35,462 nucleotides of DNA, from assembly GCA_004294095.1 (NCBI GenBank), contig RDZR01000054.1:1-35462 (forward strand), read 5' to 3'. Of this stretch, positions 14,055 to 22,864 are shown piece after piece. Position numbers and translations under genes: made by a program. Positions within the stretch are counted from its first letter, which is position 1. Each line of letters begins with the position of its first letter. The DNA comes from Verrucomicrobiota bacterium. GTDB taxonomy: Bacteria; Verrucomicrobiota; Verrucomicrobiia; Verrucomicrobiales; Akkermansiaceae. The notes beneath the pieces are model-generated. The model saw only the letters and a list, made by a program, of their open reading frames with translations, was not told the DNA's origin and ran no database searches.

Positions 14055-14135
14055 AAAACTCTCTGCTGCTAATGGCCACGGCGACAAAACAAGATTGCAG
14101 ATTTGTCGGAGATCGCAATCATCGGCCCACAACCG

Positions 14136-14939
14136 ATGGATTGGACAACGATGATTTTAGGGCCGGACCCAGCTGCTGGGTTGATGGTGATTTTAATTCT
14201 AATTTTAATTGAAGGGATTCTATCGGTCGATAACGCAGCGGTGCTCGCGACGATGGTGATGAAATTGCCGCCCGAGCAGCGAGGAAAAGCCCTGCGCTAC
14301 GGGATTCTTGGAGCCTATCTTTTTCGCGGTATTTGCCTCGTTGGCGCAGCGTGGTTGATCACCATTTGGTGGTTAGAACCGCTTGGTGGGCTTTATTTGT
14401 TGTGGCTCGCATATTCACACTTTTTTGGCAAAAAAACCGATGGCGATGAAATGACCGCTGAGAGCTCACCGCGGAAATCTTCTTGGCTTATGCGCTACAG
14501 TGTAAATCTGTTAGGCCCGTTTTGGTCCACTGTCTGTGCCATCGAGATCATGGATCTTGCGTTCTCGATCGATAACGTGGTCGCTGCGGTGGCTTATGTG
14601 AAAAATTTCCCAATGCCCTCGAAATTGATCTTGGTCTGCACGGGAGTTTTTCTGGGCATTTTAGCGATGCGGTTCGCGGCAAAAGGATTTGTGGTGCTGA
14701 TGGAGAAATTCGCATTTCTGGAAACCTGCGCGTTTCTGGTCATCGGTCTGTTAGGTGTGAAATTACTCTTGAGTGTGCCGAGGCATTTTCTCGGAGAAGG
14801 CAACCCGGTGCATGACTTTTTAGCGAGCAAGGGCTTTGACATAGGAGCCTCGTTGCTGACTTTACTGATTTTTGTGGTTCCCGTGTTGCTGCACTGGATC
14901 AAAAACCGGAAGACGTTAGATCCCTCACCTGGAGCTTAA
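14136..14939 (+). CDS. TerC-family integral membrane metal exporter
   Basis: TerC/Alx-family proteins are inner-membrane proteins linked to tellurite resistance and manganese or calcium export, often serving metalated exoenzymes. The product (267 residues from the ATG used) has about seven hydrophobic segments. It also has the two characteristic acidic motifs, EGILSVDNAAVLATMV in the first helix and EIMDLAFSIDNVVAAVAY in the middle, whose Asp/Glu/Asn residues line the ion path. An in-frame TTG at 14103 would add 11 residues. The PKS-like gene starts 20 bases after its stop, so the two are probably co-transcribed. Ion specificity cannot be told from sequence. Confidence 0.88.
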   Translation: MDWTTMILGPDPAAGLMVILILILIEGILSVDNAAVLATMVMKLPPEQRGKALRYGILGAYLFRGICLVGAAWLITIWWLEPLGGLYLLWLAYSHFFGKKTDGDEMTAESSPRKSSWLMRYSVNLLGPFWSTVCAIEIMDLAFSIDNVVAAVAYVKNFPMPSKLILVCTGVFLGILAMRFAAKGFVVLMEKFAFLETCAFLVIGLLGVKLLLSVPRHFLGEGNPVHDFLASKGFDIGASLLTLLIFVVPVLLHWIKNRKTLDPSPGA

Positions 14940-14959: not shown

Positions 14960-17900
14960 ATGGCAAAAACTGCGCTGCACATCGCATGCTGCCAAATTCC
15001 AGAAACAAAGCTACTGCTATCGAATATGAGAAATGAATCATCCGCAGCGGAAGCCATCGCAATCATCGGCATCTCTTGCCGTTTCCCGATGGCGGAAAAT
15101 CCTGATGCGCTCTGGTGCAATCTGATGGCTGGTCGTGATGCAATCACACGCGTTCATGACCAGCAGGCTGAAGCCGAAAATGATGTGATGCCGTGCAATG
15201 TGTTAGAGTATCCAGAAATGTTTGACGCCGAATTCTTCGGCATTTCCCCAAAAGAAGCTGCACTGATGGACCCTCAGCAGCGCATTTTCTTAGAATGTGC
15301 ATGGGAGGCGTTGGAAGACGGAGCTTACGATCCGCACACCTACTCTGGAATGATTGGTGTCTATGCCGACTTTAGTCTGAATGCCCACTCGCAGCATAAT
15401 CTAGCAGAAAAATGTCAGGCAGGAGCTGATCAAAAAATTGTTTCAAATGATAAGGACTTCATGCCCGTGCGAGTCTCTTATAAGCTCAATTTAAGAGGTC
15501 CTCATATCACCGTGCGGTCTGGTTGCTCCAGCTCACTGGAGGCGATTGCTCAAGCGGCGACTGCACTGCTAACTCATCAATGCGAGATGGCCCTCGCAGG
15601 TGGAGTTTCGATCACATTCCTACAAGGATGCGATTCTTTCCAGAAAAACGAGGGCATGATGCCCGCTGATGGGACGTGCGGCACGCTTGATGCTCTAACA
15701 GCAGAGACTGTTCCTAGCAATGGCTGCGGAGTGATACTACTCAAAAGGTTGAGTGAAGCGATTGCAGACGGAGATGCGATTCATGGCATCATCAGAGGCT
15801 GGGCTGTGAACCATGATGGATCTGATAAAATCGGCTTGAAGACCACAAGCATGGCATCTCAGGCAGAAGTCATCGCGAGAGCGCACAAATCAGCGGGAGT
15901 GCATCCTAGGAAAATTTCATACATCGAGGCACATGCCTCACTGCATAGAGACTCTATCGAGATAGCTGCACTCACTCAAGCATTTCAAGAAGCAGGGGCA
16001 ACGCTCCCGGAAACCTGCGTCATCGGCACCGGCAAATCCTATATTGGCGACCTCGGTTGCGCAGCAGGAGTCACCGGAGTGATTAAAACACTGCTCCAAT
16101 TCCGCCACCAAAAAATTCCTGCCACTCTGCACGATTCGCAGCAACATGATGCAATCGACTTTTCTAACAGTCCGTTTATAGCAGCAGCCAACGACATCGA
16201 TTGGCCCGTCAAAGATCAGGCTCGTTTTGCTGGAGTGAATGAGTTTGGTGTTGGTGGCACCAATGCACATATTGTGTTAGAAGAACCTCCGTTTGCGCAA
16301 GCAAGTGATGATGGAAAGTTCACGCATTTACTCATTCTTTCCGCGCACTCACACGCAGCGTTAGATACGATGTCTCGTCGTCTCGCAGATCGTATCGAAG
16401 CACATGAACCTAACCTCGCAGATGTGAGCTTTACTCTAGCAATGGGCAGGCATGCATTTCCTGTTAGGCGCTATGTGGTGTGTAAAGACACCCAAGAAGC
16501 TGTTCAAAAATTACGCGCGCCATACACACCACAATCCGCAACTAAACATAAGACCGCGCCAATCTTTTTGTTTCCCGGTCAAGGCGCGCAATCGGTCAAC
16601 ATGAGCCGCCGTTTATACGACACCTCTGACATCTTCAAACAAGCGGTGGACGAGTGTGCTTTATTATTGCGCCCATGGCTGCACTTCGATATCCGCAGCA
16701 CGCTCTATCCATCTGCCCATGAAATCGCGGAAGCCGAGAATGCGATTCACCAAACTCGACTAACTCAGCCATGTATATTCGCCGTTGAATATGGACTCGC
16801 CAAGCTCTGGATTTCCTTAGGCATCATGCCATCGGCGGTGATTGGATATAGCATCGGCGAATATGTTGCAGCAGTGATTTCAGGTGCCATGAAATTAGAG
16901 CACTCGCTGCAACTGTTAGTAAAACGAGCAGAATTAATGCAAGCATTGCCAAATGGTGCGATGTTAGCCGTGCGTGCGAGTGCAGAATCCCTGCAACTTC
17001 CAAACAATTTGGATCTCGCCGCAATCGATAGCCGTGAGCACTGCACCGTCTCGGGCACTCATGAAGCAATCGCTGATTTCCAGCTCTCATTGAATTCTAG
17101 AGAAATTCCAAACCACACATTGCAAACATCACATGCTCTTCATTCCAGAATGATGGATGGCATGCTCGATGGCTTTACCGAAGAAGCCTCGATGATACCA
17201 TGTGAAGAACCAAAGCGACCTTGGATTTCTTCTCTAACAGGTAAAATCATCACTTACCAAACACTTACGGGGCAAGCCTACTGGACGCGCCAACTCAGAG
17301 AGACTGTGCGCTTCGCCGATGCTCTAAACACCGCACAATCCGCAGAGGTGATTTCATTTTTTATTGAAGTAGGCCCAGGGCAAGCGCTTTCTACTTTTTT
17401 GTTAGATTCTACTGCATCTGCTCATGGAAATTTGATTACATCGCTTCCTGGGCTTGATACAGAAATTGAAAACCTGTTAGACCAAGTAGGGTTCTTATGG
17501 AGCCACGGTATAACGCTAGATTGGTCAGAATTTTTCAAAAACGAAAATCGCAAACGGGTTCATCTGCCCACATATCCATTCCAGCGCAAAGCGCTTTCAT
17601 CCATGCTGGCAGAAGATGCCCAAACGATCGAGCAACCTCCACATTTGCAAGCGAAGTTCAGCCATGCTGAAAATGAATGCCTAACAGAAACACAACAAGT
17701 TGCGCTCATTGCTCTAACTGCTCGTTACATCGCAAAAACTCAACAATCCAAAAATTTCGCAGCCGGAAATTTCGCCCACCATGTGGACTCGAAGGCGCCA
17801 GTCACATTCAAATCGATGTGCAATGAAATGGCATATCCGATTCTCTCAGATGGCTCGAAAGGGTCCAAACTTATCGACATTGATGGCAATTCCTACGTCG

Positions 17901-19645
17901 ATGTGACGCTGGATCCTGGGTCATTCATCTTTGACCAATCTCCGGACGAGTTGCTTGATGCGGTTGAAAAGCAATGGCGAAGTAGCCTTGATTTGGCAGA
18001 ACGCGTCAGTCGATTTTGCCGAACATTGAATGATCACTTTCAGAAAATTCGGGTGCCCATTCACCTCTCAAACTTCAGTGCATGTGCAGCCATAGAGCAC
18101 GCCAGTGATTTAAAATTTGTGAGCCTGTTATGGATTTATCTAAAGGAAAAAGGCATTTATATTTGGGCAGGAAAGCCGCTGCAATTTACCACAGCACACA
18201 CAAATGAAGATTTTGATCACCTTGTCTGCGCCTTCTCTCAGGCAGTCCTAGAAATGCAAAATGCTGGATTTCTGCCACTTCATGCATCGGCAACGGACAT
18301 CGAAGCACCCAAACAATTTCCGCGCATTGATCAAGCACCTACCACTCAGGCACAACGAGAAATTTTTAACACACTTCTGTTAGGTGACGAGGCCAATTGT
18401 GCATTCAATGAGTCTAAGATCATTTCCATGGAGGGGAATCTCGATCGTGAAGCACTTCAACTCGCCTTGTTAGACGTGATCACGCGCCACCCTGCATTGC
18501 GCAGCACGTTCTCAGCAGACGGGATGACTCAATATTATCATCCTGCACCTAAAATGTTAGAAGTGATGACTCATGATTATTCAAACTTCACAGACCAATC
18601 GCCATCGAAACTTCTACCGCTTAACTTAATAAAAAAAGCAGAATGTTCCACCCCCTTTGACTTACAAAAAGGCTCAATCGTCCGGCTACATGTCATCCAT
18701 CTGGCAGGAAATCGGCATGAGCTCTTATTCACGACTCACCAATTAGTGTGTGATGAGTGGTCTTTTAAAATCGTTCTAACTGATTTGGCTAAAGCATACA
18801 ATGCTCGCAAAGCCAAGCGTTTGCCGCGATTGGCCGCAGCGATGTCCTTTGCTGATTTTGCCCGGAAAGACAAACTTGAACGCGACCTTTGCAACAACCA
18901 ACACCGGGATGATGATTGCTTGAATTTTGATGGCTGCGGCTACCCGACGCTGAATTTACCGACTGATCGACCTCGCACGCAAATCAAAGAATACGCCGGT
19001 GGAACGGAATACCTCACTCTGGATCCGGATCTCTATTCGCAGTTGAAAGAAGCGTCACCTCAACTCGGCGGCACTTTGTTTGTATCGCTCCTATCCGCCT
19101 ATGCAATTCTCCTGCACCTCCTAACCGATCAAAATCAACTACTCATCGGCGTGCCCATCGCTATCCAGCTACCTACTGGCTCCGATGAGTTGATTGGGCA
19201 TTGCATTAACATTCTGCCACTGCGCTTATCGCCCAATCCTGAGAGTTCATTTCGTGATTTCACCAATGCGGTGCAGACCAAGATGTTAGATGCATTTGAT
19301 CACCATGATTGCACTTGGGATATGGATACCAACCAACCACCTGTAATTTCCTGCCTCTTAAGGTTCGATCATATCAACTCAAATCAGCTTCGTTTCGACA
19401 AAATCCAATTTGAAATCACCACCAATCCAAAGCAATTTGTCAACTTCGATCTGTCATTTAATCTCCAGCAAAATGAAAATCGAGTTGTGTTGAAATGCGA
19501 ATACAGTGCGGCTTTGTATGACGCGAAAACGATTCGCCATTGGCTTGCGATATATGAAAAAATCATCGAAGTAATTCTGAAAAACGCCGACGCTAAAATT
19601 CATCATCTTGCGCATTTAATCTTACCATTAGATCCAAAATTATAG
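14960..19645 (+). CDS. Degenerate PKS/NRPS-like megasynthase (KS-AT-truncated aminotransferase-C)
   Basis: This 1561-residue protein has the domain order of the loading part of mycosubtilin/iturin-type hybrid synthetases. A ketosynthase spans about residues 30-445 (Cys in GCSSS at C189, His in EAHAS at H325). A linker and acyltransferase run to about 868-877 (LPTYPFQRK), with FPGQGAQ, nucleophile S631 and H728. A glutamate-semialdehyde aminotransferase-like segment (915-1105) and a condensation domain (1121-1555) follow. Many active-site signatures are altered: the second KS His is D364, HGTGT is HASLH, the AT GHS is GYS, and the condensation HHxxxDG is HQLVCDE (Q1261, E1266). The aminotransferase lacks its PLP-lysine core, and no carrier domain is visible. 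No frameshift or stop is present. The ATG at 15026 is an alternative start. Probably a catalytically altered or repurposed protein; its function is unknown. Confidence 0.85.
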   Translation: MAKTALHIACCQIPETKLLLSNMRNESSAAEAIAIIGISCRFPMAENPDALWCNLMAGRDAITRVHDQQAEAENDVMPCNVLEYPEMFDAEFFGISPKEAALMDPQQRIFLECAWEALEDGAYDPHTYSGMIGVYADFSLNAHSQHNLAEKCQAGADQKIVSNDKDFMPVRVSYKLNLRGPHITVRSGCSSSLEAIAQAATALLTHQCEMALAGGVSITFLQGCDSFQKNEGMMPADGTCGTLDALTAETVPSNGCGVILLKRLSEAIADGDAIHGIIRGWAVNHDGSDKIGLKTTSMASQAEVIARAHKSAGVHPRKISYIEAHASLHRDSIEIAALTQAFQEAGATLPETCVIGTGKSYIGDLGCAAGVTGVIKTLLQFRHQKIPATLHDSQQHDAIDFSNSPFIAAANDIDWPVKDQARFAGVNEFGVGGTNAHIVLEEPPFAQASDDGKFTHLLILSAHSHAALDTMSRRLADRIEAHEPNLADVSFTLAMGRHAFPVRRYVVCKDTQEAVQKLRAPYTPQSATKHKTAPIFLFPGQGAQSVNMSRRLYDTSDIFKQAVDECALLLRPWLHFDIRSTLYPSAHEIAEAENAIHQTRLTQPCIFAVEYGLAKLWISLGIMPSAVIGYSIGEYVAAVISGAMKLEHSLQLLVKRAELMQALPNGAMLAVRASAESLQLPNNLDLAAIDSREHCTVSGTHEAIADFQLSLNSREIPNHTLQTSHALHSRMMDGMLDGFTEEASMIPCEEPKRPWISSLTGKIITYQTLTGQAYWTRQLRETVRFADALNTAQSAEVISFFIEVGPGQALSTFLLDSTASAHGNLITSLPGLDTEIENLLDQVGFLWSHGITLDWSEFFKNENRKRVHLPTYPFQRKALSSMLAEDAQTIEQPPHLQAKFSHAENECLTETQQVALIALTARYIAKTQQSKNFAAGNFAHHVDSKAPVTFKSMCNEMAYPILSDGSKGSKLIDIDGNSYVDVTLDPGSFIFDQSPDELLDAVEKQWRSSLDLAERVSRFCRTLNDHFQKIRVPIHLSNFSACAAIEHASDLKFVSLLWIYLKEKGIYIWAGKPLQFTTAHTNEDFDHLVCAFSQAVLEMQNAGFLPLHASATDIEAPKQFPRIDQAPTTQAQREIFNTLLLGDEANCAFNESKIISMEGNLDREALQLALLDVITRHPALRSTFSADGMTQYYHPAPKMLEVMTHDYSNFTDQSPSKLLPLNLIKKAECSTPFDLQKGSIVRLHVIHLAGNRHELLFTTHQLVCDEWSFKIVLTDLAKAYNARKAKRLPRLAAAMSFADFARKDKLERDLCNNQHRDDDCLNFDGCGYPTLNLPTDRPRTQIKEYAGGTEYLTLDPDLYSQLKEASPQLGGTLFVSLLSAYAILLHLLTDQNQLLIGVPIAIQLPTGSDELIGHCINILPLRLSPNPESSFRDFTNAVQTKMLDAFDHHDCTWDMDTNQPPVISCLLRFDHINSNQLRFDKIQFEITTNPKQFVNFDLSFNLQQNENRVVLKCEYSAALYDAKTIRHWLAIYEKIIEVILKNADAKIHHLAHLILPLDPKL

Positions 19646-19687: not shown

Positions 19688-22600
19688 GTGCCTGACGCAC
19701 GCATTCTATCCAGCGGCTTGATTGCACGAGCCGCTCATCATCCAGACTTCACAGCGCATCTTCTCTCAGGCGGAAAAGATGTCGGGCCAATCGTGCTCGG
19801 ACACATCACAGAATCCGCGCAAGCCTTTGCTTGCTGCACAGTGATGCATGCCGTGCGAGCCAGCGGCAAAAACCGATTTTGGATCGTCTGCGAAAGACCA
19901 CGGCAACGTGAACGCCTCGCCATGGAAATGGCACTTTGGGGAATCAACGCACTCGTTTTACCCGCAGGCCCTGGCGAGGTGCGGGAGGAGATGTTAGGCG
20001 ATCCGGAAGCCACTGCGGAATGGTTGTGTGTGTTAGAGGAAATAGCGCGCAACGAATCGATTGTCATCCTCTGCGGCAGTGAAGACTTCAATCAAACCGC
20101 ACCAGCACCGTCTGCTCTGTTAGGAAATCGCGAAGTCCTGCAAGTGGGCGATTCGCTCGAGCTGCGGCAATTTACCGAAATGCTCACCGGTCGTGGCTAC
20201 GAGCAAGTTCCCATGGTCACCAGCCGTGGCCAATGCTCAGTGCGAGGCGGCATCTTGGACGTTTTTCCCTTCCATGGATTAAAGCCGCTTCGCATCGAAT
20301 TTTTTGATCAGGAAATTGAATCGATCCGCGAATTTGATCTCGATAGTCAAGCATCGATCAAACGTCTCAATCTAGCAGAAATTCGTTTTGGTGAGCCAGC
20401 AAACCAAGCATGCATCTCAGATTATCGGCTGCCGAATGATTTTACGATCGCGATCGATCAAGCCTGCACTGCGGACGTTCAAATCACGGAAGACAATGGC
20501 ACATTGGAAGGTGAAGAAGATTTTACTCTCGCCCACTTTCACAGTCCGTTAGGAAATTTCGACGCGGGCGATTTTGTGTTAGATGAAGCTCGCCGCGAGC
20601 AATTTTTCACCCAACTCAGCGATTGGAAAAAAGACGGCTGGGACGTGCTGATGGTCTTCAGCAATCAAGGCGAGCAAGAACGCTTCACCGAATTGGCAGG
20701 TAAAAATTTGCTCCGTGATCTAGGAATCGAGCCAATGACCGGCGAATTATTCGGTGGCTTCACCGTGCCGTATCTTCGATTGGCCGTGCTCGCCTCTTCA
20801 GAACTTTTTGGCCGCTACCGGGCACCACTGAGCCATCGCCGCAGCTACATCGAGCATGCGCAAACAATCCGTTCGCGGAAAATGTTAGATGAAATCGATG
20901 AAGGCGATCTCGTGGTGCATTATGAATATGGCATCGCTCGCTATCGCGGGATCGAATCCGGCGATGAGGGCGATGAACTTTCGTTAGAATTTCGCAACGG
21001 CATGCTGCTCGCCGTGCCACTTGATCAAGCACACCTTGTCGGCAAGTTTATCGGCATCGGCGGCAAGCCACCCGAGCTCACCAAACTCGGTGGCACCTCA
21101 TGGAAAAATGCGCGGAAGGCCGCAGAAAAATCGATCATGGATTACGCGGCGCAATTGCTCCGTGTGCAAGCTGAGCGGCAATCCGAGCGCGGCCATGCAT
21201 TTGCTGCAGACACCAAATGGATGTGGGAATTCGAGCAATCGTTCCATTACGCCGAGACCAAAGATCAAAAGCTCGCGATCGAAGCGACCAAGCGCGATAT
21301 GGAAGCCGCTCGTCCGATGGATCGTTTGATCTGCGGCGATGTCGGCTTTGGTAAAACCGAAGTGGCCATCCGCGCCGCGTTTAAAGCGATCACTGGCGGC
21401 AAACAAGTGGCGCTGTTAGTGCCTACCACTGTTCTAGCAGAACAACATTGGCGCACGTTCCGCGAGCGCATGTCCGACTACCCGATGCGAGTTGAACTGC
21501 TCAATCGTTTCCGCTCTGCTAGCGAGATCCGCTCGACGATTGAAGGTCTAGCAGATGGATCTGTCGATTTAGTCATTGGCACGCACCGGCTTGTTTCGCC
21601 CGATGTGCACTTTAAAAATCTGGGCCTCGTCATCATCGATGAAGAGCAACGATTCGGTGTCGCTCATAAAGAATCGTTCAAGCAACGCTTCACCCATGTG
21701 GATGTGCTCACCTTATCCGCCACGCCGATTCCGCGCACACTTTACATGGCGATGATGGGCACTCGTGACATGTCCACCATCGAGACTCCCCCACCCAATC
21801 GCGTGCCGGTTTCTACATCGATCTGTGCCTACGATGAGCGCGTGATTCGCGATGCCATTCGCAGGGAAATCAAACGCGGCGGACAAGTATTTTTCCTACA
21901 CAATCGGGTGAAAACCATCGAAATGATGGGCAGAAAAATTCGCGAACTCGTGCCCGAGGCGAAACTCCTCATCGGCCACGGCCAAATGGCCAAAGATGAT
22001 CTCGAAGTGGTCATGCACGAATTCGTCAACGGCCATGCGGACGTTCTGTTAGCCACGACGATCATCGAAACGGGCATTGATATCCCCAATGCAAATACCA
22101 TCCTAATCGACCGCGCAGATCGCTTTGGTCTAGCAGATCTCTATCAGTTGCGAGGGCGCGTCGGCCGCGCTGGAGAAAAGGCATACGCCATTTTATTGCT
22201 GCCGCGCGACATGCTCACGCAAGGTGATGCACGCAAGCGCATTCACGCGATCAAGCAATACACAGAGCTTGGATCGGGCTTTAAGATCGCAATGAAAGAT
22301 CTCGAAATTCGCGGCGCGGGAAATATGTTAGGCACGCGCCAATCGGGCCACGTCGCGCAGATTGGCTTTGAGCTATACTGCCAATTGCTGCGTCAATCCG
22401 TCGAGCGCTTGAAAGGCAATGGCAGCATCCGCAGCTTGCAAGATTGCACATTCAAAGCAGATTGTGTGGTGATGCGAGAAGCGGCGTGGCTTTCGCGCCA
22501 GTGCGCGGATCAAGTTCCCGCCTTTCTCTCAAGCGAGTGGCTAGAAGACACCGGACTTCGCGTCGCCGCTTACCGAGAGCTCGCAGAGCTGGCAGATCAG

Positions 22601-22864
22601 GCGTCCATTGATGCTCTGGCCAAAACGTGGCATGATCGTTTTGGGCCACTTCCGGAAACTGCATGCAATTTGCTGCTCATTCAAAAAATCCGCGCCGTAG
22701 CAAATCGCCACCAAATCGATGCCGTAGAAATTTCTGGTCAGCGCCTGATGCTGCAACGCCATGGCGAGTCGATCCTGCTTGAAGAACGCAGATTTCCGCG
22801 GCTCACGTCGTCTTGCCCACAGCGAAAATTGGAAGAATGCCTGACGATGCTGCAACGCTTTTGA
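19688..22864 (+). CDS. mfd: Transcription-repair coupling factor Mfd
   Basis: Mfd displaces RNA polymerase stalled at DNA lesions and recruits UvrA. The 1058-residue product shows the UvrB-homology N-terminal modules (SRGQCSVRGGILDVFPF), then the RNA-polymerase-interacting domain (DLVVHYEYGIARYRGIE). The superfamily 2 translocase follows, with Walker A GDVGFGKTE (K556) and DEEQ (D651-Q654). RecG-like helicase motifs (TATPIPRT-like LSATPIPRTLYMA, ETGIDIPNANTI, QLRGRVGR) and the C-terminal TRCF domain close it. It is a little shorter than E. coli Mfd (1148). It begins at a GTG 42 bases after the PKS-like gene; an ATG seven bases earlier is out of frame. Native codon habit. Confidence 0.96.
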   Translation: MPDARILSSGLIARAAHHPDFTAHLLSGGKDVGPIVLGHITESAQAFACCTVMHAVRASGKNRFWIVCERPRQRERLAMEMALWGINALVLPAGPGEVREEMLGDPEATAEWLCVLEEIARNESIVILCGSEDFNQTAPAPSALLGNREVLQVGDSLELRQFTEMLTGRGYEQVPMVTSRGQCSVRGGILDVFPFHGLKPLRIEFFDQEIESIREFDLDSQASIKRLNLAEIRFGEPANQACISDYRLPNDFTIAIDQACTADVQITEDNGTLEGEEDFTLAHFHSPLGNFDAGDFVLDEARREQFFTQLSDWKKDGWDVLMVFSNQGEQERFTELAGKNLLRDLGIEPMTGELFGGFTVPYLRLAVLASSELFGRYRAPLSHRRSYIEHAQTIRSRKMLDEIDEGDLVVHYEYGIARYRGIESGDEGDELSLEFRNGMLLAVPLDQAHLVGKFIGIGGKPPELTKLGGTSWKNARKAAEKSIMDYAAQLLRVQAERQSERGHAFAADTKWMWEFEQSFHYAETKDQKLAIEATKRDMEAARPMDRLICGDVGFGKTEVAIRAAFKAITGGKQVALLVPTTVLAEQHWRTFRERMSDYPMRVELLNRFRSASEIRSTIEGLADGSVDLVIGTHRLVSPDVHFKNLGLVIIDEEQRFGVAHKESFKQRFTHVDVLTLSATPIPRTLYMAMMGTRDMSTIETPPPNRVPVSTSICAYDERVIRDAIRREIKRGGQVFFLHNRVKTIEMMGRKIRELVPEAKLLIGHGQMAKDDLEVVMHEFVNGHADVLLATTIIETGIDIPNANTILIDRADRFGLADLYQLRGRVGRAGEKAYAILLLPRDMLTQGDARKRIHAIKQYTELGSGFKIAMKDLEIRGAGNMLGTRQSGHVAQIGFELYCQLLRQSVERLKGNGSIRSLQDCTFKADCVVMREAAWLSRQCADQVPAFLSSEWLEDTGLRVAAYRELAELADQASIDALAKTWHDRFGPLPETACNLLLIQKIRAVANRHQIDAVEISGQRLMLQRHGESILLEERRFPRLTSSCPQRKLEECLTMLQRF

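Follow-up and report, generated by a model that had tools for sequence, protein, structure and literature searches.

Genomic context

The DNA analysed here, referred to as the window, is a stretch of 35,462 nucleotides from an Akkermansiaceae (Verrucomicrobiota) genome (assembly GCA_004294095.1, contig RDZR01000054.1, positions 1–35,462, forward strand). It contains a single long open reading frame (ORF) with domains of a PKS/NRPS hybrid synthase, lying between two genes that the original prediction had named terC and mfd, a placement that the coordinates bear out. The features of the locus are as follows.

14103..14939, + strand: upstream ORF, putative TerC-like (name from the original prediction; ORF listing and relatives)
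14960..19645, + strand: whole synthase ORF, 1561 aa (ATG start, ORF listing; no internal stop)
15050..16294, + strand: ketosynthase (KS), residues 31–445, with the Pfam match at 31–391 (Pfam, motif alignment)
16562..17449, + strand: acyltransferase (AT), residues 535–830 (Pfam, motif alignment, structure model)
17591..17674, + strand: short linker in place of the ACP (alignment to homologues)
17672..17980, + strand: N-terminal aminotransferase (AMT) fragment (alignment to homologues)
17981..18274, + strand: C-terminal AMT fragment, fused in frame to the N-terminal one (alignment to homologues)
18329..19609, + strand: condensation (C) domain, residues 1124–1550 (Pfam, motif alignment)
19688..22864, + strand: downstream ORF, putative mfd (name from the original prediction; ORF listing and relatives)

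The first 22 residues of the synthase ORF are without counterpart in most homologues, and because the homologue alignments begin at residue 23 against their own residue 1, the true start is probably Met23 at 15026. The neighbouring genes are on the same strand and tightly spaced, with 42 bases separating the synthase ORF from the mfd ORF, and promoter-like sites (3 against 7.3 expected) and terminator-like sites (8 against 6.3 expected) occur at chance level. The GC3 of the synthase ORF (0.453) is below that of all 13 other measured genes of the window (0.50–0.63). The terC-like ORF has relatives of up to 72–75% identity within the genus, and the mfd ORF has a match at E ≤1e-100 in 69 of 73 genus genomes, its own included. 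A conserved synteny of both genes around the synthase, which the original prediction had proposed to look for, was ruled out: of 40 further genomes of the genus in which a terC-like gene was matched, often distantly, 38 also have an mfd match, and none carries the two within 50 kb on one contig, as read by eye from the positions.

Domains and active-site residues

The Pfam families that score above cut-off in the protein are ketoacyl-synt/Ketoacyl-synt_C, Acyl_transf_1 and Condensation, and the KS-AT linker is recognised as well, which agrees with the KS, AT and C parts of the domain order first read from the sequence. The aminotransferase of that order is present only as two end fragments, and Pfam lists no Aminotran_3 match in the protein. 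The motif residues of KS, AT and C domains have known catalytic roles, and alignment of these motifs with homologues indicates an uneven state of preservation. The KS retains Cys189 and His325, while the third catalytic His has become Asp364, breaking the Cys-His-His triad of a modular PKS/NRPS hybrid; its HGTGTxxGD loop is altered and two residues shorter than in the homologues. In the C domain the HHxxxDG motif reads HQxxxDE, with Gln1261 in place of the catalytic His. On these motifs both the KS and the C domain are judged to be inactive. The AT retains GQGAQ, QP, Ser631, Arg656, His725 and His728, among them the GxSxG serine, Arg and His (Ser631, Arg656, His725) that define the domain in modular type I PKS/NRPS hybrids. 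Its serine motif is GYSIGE as against GHSIGE in the homologues, the His of which is present in 9 of the 9 homologues shown.

Aligned with the 16 homologues that cover the AMT, the protein lacks sequence at two internal places: the ACP that follows the AT, and 251 columns of the AMT that form its PLP core. In the case of the ACP, a BLAST gap at residues 878–903 corresponds to residues 864–1062 of a full-length homologue (L023). A hidden carrier domain was ruled out, since Pfam lists no PP-binding match in the protein at E up to 1 and the alignment has the short linker instead of an ACP, as the original prediction of a carrierless protein of 1561 residues had anticipated. The ORF stops after the C domain, and the adenylation domain and downstream PCP of MycA-like hybrids are absent from the protein. 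An intact KS-AT-AMT-C enzyme was likewise ruled out, the AMT core being missing and the KS and C sites broken. The mycosubtilin/iturin-type synthetases, of which MycA is an example, share the order of KS-AT, aminotransferase and C at the PKS-NRPS junction, but differ in having a working aminotransferase and carrier and unbroken KS and C sites; the present protein is about half as long as the corresponding subunit of its own relatives.

Structure models

Among solved structures, the best sequence matches are KS-AT proteins (8xjy, 554 bits, residues 32–876). In a model of the KS-AT part, the AT is mostly at pLDDT 78–96, falling to 58–67 near its end, and most of the first 250 residues of the KS are below 50, a value from a single model that is not taken as unfolding of the KS. 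The AT model superimposes on the AT of SpnD (5yda; Z 39.3, rmsd 2.1, 394 aligned) and on the pneumococcal MCAT (3im8; Z 35.3, rmsd 2.2, 293 aligned). The model of residues 876–1561 has a mean pLDDT of 59.8, with the AMT remnant mostly low and not shown to fold by itself, and matches both C and X domains (Z about 19–22, rmsd about 9–12); the X-domain matches (Z 20–21, rmsd 9–10) are equalled by those to ordinary C domains.

Descent from a three-gene cluster

The protein has matches at E ≤1e-30 in 40 of the 195 genomes of the family and 26 of the 73 of the genus, its own genome being counted in both, and part of these matches are other types of PKS at 33–42% identity. The best matches sit in frames of about 3000 aa unless these are broken by contig ends, and the identity to the same-genus homologues of this length is 52–56% over KS-AT and 50–53% over the AMT end and C domain. 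In one relative, Pfam resolves the cluster into a 608-aa A-PCP loading protein, a 2976-aa KS-AT-ACP-AMT-C-A-MT-PCP subunit and a 1367-aa C-A-PCP-TE protein, and this three-gene layout fits the ORF lengths in most of the other fetched loci (an example of the large subunit is L023:5947–14874). The records with matches that were listed include Akkermansiaceae and Verrucomicrobiaceae bins, Haloferula sp. and Luteolibacter marinus, and we infer that the relatives bearing the cluster belong to the Akkermansiaceae. In a KS-AT tree the window protein stands beside Akkermansiaceae copies, on a long branch. The cluster itself is, to our knowledge, uncharacterised.

On these alignments, the window protein is a deletion derivative of the subunit of about 2976 aa of the relatives' three-gene PKS/NRPS cluster. 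It is homologous to that subunit over KS, AT, AMT ends and C at about 50–56% identity, but is about half its length, has a broken KS and C, lies among other neighbours and is without the ACP, the AMT core and the A, MT and PCP domains, the loss of the A-MT-PCP tail being evident from a Pfam-annotated homologue that continues past the C domain. This origin stands in place of the earlier picture of a KS-AT-AMT-C protein: the protein is a deletion product in which three catalytic parts (KS, aminotransferase and C) are inactivated.

In relatives such as L023 (1–4068), the intact cluster adjoins genes that resemble, by eye, Wza/Wzc polysaccharide export proteins, and ORFs of Wza/Wzc-like length recur beside the cluster in several other loci.

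Damaged copies in related genomes

A first scan for related loci found no relative. A second, using the AMT-fragment alignment, took the best 80 loci among 448 relatives; screened with regular expressions, 10 of them were flagged for having no ACP motif upstream and 13 for having no core motif. On reading, one of the flagged loci (L092) had its ACP just beyond the searched stretch, several were at a contig edge or frame-broken, and others had the AMT core sequence with a variant motif; the ACP motif is absent in two Streptomyces loci (L138 and L167). Only one of the 80 listed loci (L091, on a contig of genome G202) clearly has no ACP separating AT from AMT, and there the contig breaks off ahead of the core. 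The AMT core deletion of the window protein was in none of the 80 listed loci, and a second genome with the same architecture was not found among the genomes searched.

The G202 copy, besides lacking the ACP, has the AT Ser replaced by Gly and a loading module that is truncated and frameshifted, in a cluster whose decay is visible. The end points of its ACP deletion seem to differ, in the alignment, from those of the window protein, and the copy groups in the KS-AT tree with L023 and L025, both with an ACP (support 55–56; 94 for the wider clade including L022). Because of this grouping with ACP-bearing copies, its ACP loss looks independent of that in the window protein. The copy of a further genome, G178, has a TAA stop and a frameshift, for which a sequencing error is possible. 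From the G202 and G178 copies beside the window protein, the synthase gene is taken to have been damaged on more than one occasion within the genus. A repeat-rich ORF of 2955 aa adjoins the damaged copy in G202 (contig C260, L045, 3803–12667).

The open reading frame

The frame is fully open, as originally noted, with no stop or frameshift in the ancestral frame over 1561 codons; the indels add up to lengths that preserve the frame, as they must in an open ORF, and the protein aligns to its homologues in one frame. Under simulated neutral drift to about 15% changed residues, 1561 codons would have acquired a mean of 11–17 stops, depending on mutation bias, and none of the simulated sequences (60 runs per setting) was stop-free, in a simulation that takes the KS excess as neutral and starts from the present sequence. 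Scaled by proportion to the KS, AMT ends and C (1052 codons), 7–11 stops are expected, and a second count, on 225 changed invariant codons, gives 12 were all of the changes neutral; none is seen in either case. Because the expected stops are absent, the frame has probably been under selection for a large part of the time in which the protein was relaxed. Either the protein itself would have been selected, for a residual and probably AT-based function, or the frame has stayed open otherwise, through polarity on mfd or a recent release from constraint.

Rates of change and selection

In a first count, 75 of 261 KS residues that are invariant elsewhere were changed in the window protein, compared with 0–5 of about 190 per homologue. 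The extreme acceleration of the KS suggested by this count was subsequently corrected, since the host lineage is itself long-branched in Mfd, and for this reason rates were re-expressed relative to the host proteins Mfd and LigA. The comparison used those 8 of 17 homologues with an Mfd locus in the genome (7 for AMT and C, where the G202 copy is cut off). In the host controls, 102 of 666 (Mfd) and 51 of 373 (LigA) invariant residues are changed, together 153 of 1039 or 14.7%. Against this background the AT, with 25 of 139 changed, does not stand out (p 0.31), the AT and C offering fewer columns, while the KS (83 of 283, p 6e-8), the AMT ends (39 of 118, p 3e-6) and the C domain (29 of 104, p 0.001) exceed it; the direct contrast of AT and KS is moderate (p 0.013). 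Distance ratios are 1.73 for the AT and 1.91 for C, beside 1.95 for Mfd and 1.43 for LigA, and reach 2.87 for the KS and 3.9 for the AMT. By these measures the AT, the best preserved part of the protein, is changing at host pace, and the KS and AMT remnants are relaxed.

The character of the replacements adds to this picture. Those in the KS are as radical as expected of neutral change (BLOSUM mean −0.47 against −0.53), those in the C domain are conservative (+0.23 against −0.37 neutral) and comparable to those in Mfd, and those in AT and AMT are intermediate with wide errors. The C columns of the rate comparison are limited by a truncated copy (G131), and allowing one gap gave 78 changed C positions. 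Judged from these scores, constraint is not unique to the AT, the C replacements being conservative. Omega=1 for the branch as a whole is rejected by a codon model, with lnL differences of 75 for KS, 54 for AT and 47 for C, in fits of at most 40 iterations, some of which ran into the limit set on the branch length; owing to saturation of the synonymous sites, no omega value is given for the branch.

These rates bear on two alternatives to a surviving AT activity. A close rival, which is tentative but quite possible, regards the protein as a remnant without function at a late stage of a cluster loss that is under way in parts of the genus, its frame being open through recent release or because stops would have a polar effect on mfd. 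The relaxed KS and AMT, the low GC3 and the damaged G202 and G178 copies are in keeping with such decay, and the same-strand mfd ORF 42 bases downstream, together with the chance level of promoter- and terminator-like sites, would suit the polarity version. Neutral change of the observed size nevertheless predicts roughly 7–17 stops where there are none, and polarity alone leaves unexplained both the host pace of the AT and the conservative C replacements. The original view that long residence and selection, rather than fresh decay, account for the gene stands in part: neutral drift explains the open frame poorly, but KS, AMT and C are inactivated, and KS and AMT are relaxed.

The second alternative, which goes back to the original prediction, takes the protein for a pseudoenzyme that serves as a scaffold or in binding, its KS and C folds forming a platform. 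The inactive X-domain of glycopeptide synthetases serves as such a platform for P450 enzymes, and it resembles the window's C domain as a condensation fold without the catalytic His, although X-domains differ in being part of working synthetases that recruit P450s. The conservative C substitutions despite the lost His, and the X-domains among the structural matches, would be consistent with a scaffold. The KS, however, which is the dimer-forming part of a synthase, is the most relaxed of the large domains, the neighbourhood suggests no partner, and ordinary C structures match equally well, which makes this an improbable account.

Partners in the genome

The assembly (3.0 Mb, 113 contigs, 96.96% complete) contains a single PP-binding match, in a frame of 93 aa (AcpP), and a single PF01648 PPTase match, in a frame of 129 aa (AcpS-like). 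No other KS-AT or C protein was found in it, the only further match being a FabF-like frame (E 3e-18), and the description of the protein as an orphan without a partner in trans is upheld in this assembly. Because of this paucity of partners and the broken KS and C sites, assembly-line synthesis by the protein is very unlikely unless the partners lie in the roughly 3% that is unassembled. That a partner synthetase with carrier domains acts in trans and keeps the protein in an assembly line draws on this incompleteness, and is hardly credible given the single carrier and PPTase and the broken active sites. The remainder of the cluster is gone from the assembly, the protein has lost its ACP, AMT core and A-MT-PCP tail, and its KS and C domains no longer have their active sites; as far as its sequence can tell, it is thereby shown to be unable to build a product now.

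The AT and the absence of fabD from the assembly

The only TIGR00128 (FabD) match in the assembly is the synthase AT itself, at 120–124 bits and below the cut-off of 260.9 bits, and FabD exceeds the cut-off in each of the 47 other genomes of the genus with a completeness of at least 90% and a contamination of at most 5%. The catalytic Ser, His, Arg and Gln of FabD/MCAT and the AT fold are present in the synthase AT (Z 35.3 to 3im8, as above), which differs from FabD in its score, in being embedded in 1561 aa and in a sequence nearer to PKS ATs. These observations raise the prospect that the decayed synthase AT is now the malonyl-CoA:AcpP transacylase of the organism, fabD having been lost, and that the protein is essential for that reason; the AT would then feed fatty acid synthesis, and its active site would be kept and its frame open within a housekeeping run on that account.

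A precedent comes from polyunsaturated fatty acid synthases, in which a malonyl transacylase domain likewise embedded in a megasynthase (PfaA) is reported to serve type II fatty acid synthesis: in Photobacterium profundum, fabD is dispensable by itself but shows synthetic lethality with pfaA, and an E. coli strain deleted for fabD is complemented by Pfa synthases (PMC8174602). PfaA differs in acting beside an intact Pfa pathway. By analogy, replacement of FabD by a megasynthase AT would be mechanistically reasonable.

The genomic surroundings of fabD in relatives speak against it here. A tRNA-Asp(gtc) gene adjoins fabD in 15 of the 20 best-scoring loci, as well as in G045, G158, G076 and G127, and in a similarity search with the gene of one relative it was not found in the present assembly, the matches being His, Arg, Ala and Lys tRNAs or non-tRNA sequence. 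Since the cell needs tRNA-Asp, which is missing together with fabD, one assembly gap over both is the simpler account and likelier than replacement, which is accordingly a possible but unlikely reading. A gene that we take to be der-like lies next to fabD in four relatives, and its counterpart in the present genome (contig C5) has neither fabD nor tRNA-Asp beside it; gene order around it did not settle whether fabD is absent. The same contig (L209, 660–2516) carries, by eye, Cas1- and Cas2-like ORFs followed by a frame of repeated units, probably a CRISPR locus.

A reduced synthase with a candidate surviving activity

The reading preferred here, to which we give a probability of about 0.4, is that of a reduced PKS/NRPS subunit whose frame is kept under selection, the surviving activity most likely being that of the AT. 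The losses in the large subunit (ACP, AMT core, A-MT-PCP tail, active sites of KS and C) and of the rest of the cluster from the assembly are shown by the sequence; the reading frame would have been selected since, as the absence of stops suggests. The AT would charge Ser631 with malonyl, or a similar acyl group, taken from CoA and hand it on in trans to AcpP, the single carrier found in the assembly, or else it would hydrolyse acyl thioesters, with the KS and C folds acting as inert support. The points against a function of the AT are the change to GYSIGE, the low GC3, KS replacements as radical as neutral ones, the moderate contrast of AT and KS, and the lack of a second genome with the architecture. 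Overall, the original prediction is partly supported: the protein is a real, reduced and carrierless synthase relic, and for any residual function it may have, the best candidate is the AT acting on AcpP.

Among the papers listed in literature searches, none describes such a protein by its title or the opening of its abstract, and none came up on polyketide synthases in Akkermansiaceae together with Luteolibacter; PMC5826242 mentions one NRPS cluster in a Verrucomicrobiaceae bin.

The locus presents an assembly-line protein that nature has pared down, with cuts close to the domain borders and a frame that is still open across 4.7 kb. With full-length, damaged and absent states in one genus, what becomes of large synthases once their cluster is lost can be tested. 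Should the AT indeed work on AcpP, it would show how a domain of secondary metabolism in nature enters, or takes over, a step in the primary synthesis of fatty acids, a transfer with an experimental precedent in PfaA (PMC8174602). The protein is a useful case of megasynthase reduction, and would be remarkable only if FabD had indeed been replaced.

Pentamer composition

The dense GTTAG/CTAAC occurrence described in the original prediction is confirmed as an approximately two-fold over-representation, in the window (110 against 52.4 expected) as in the gene (22 against 10.1). In 128 kb of own-genome DNA, consisting of the window and the stretches L200, L201, L202, L209, L216 and L217, it is the top over-represented pentamer (378 against 181.5 expected), with T preferred before it and A after it, longer words bringing no gain. 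A similar excess occurs in L022, L023 and L192, and little or none in L193, L195 and L199.
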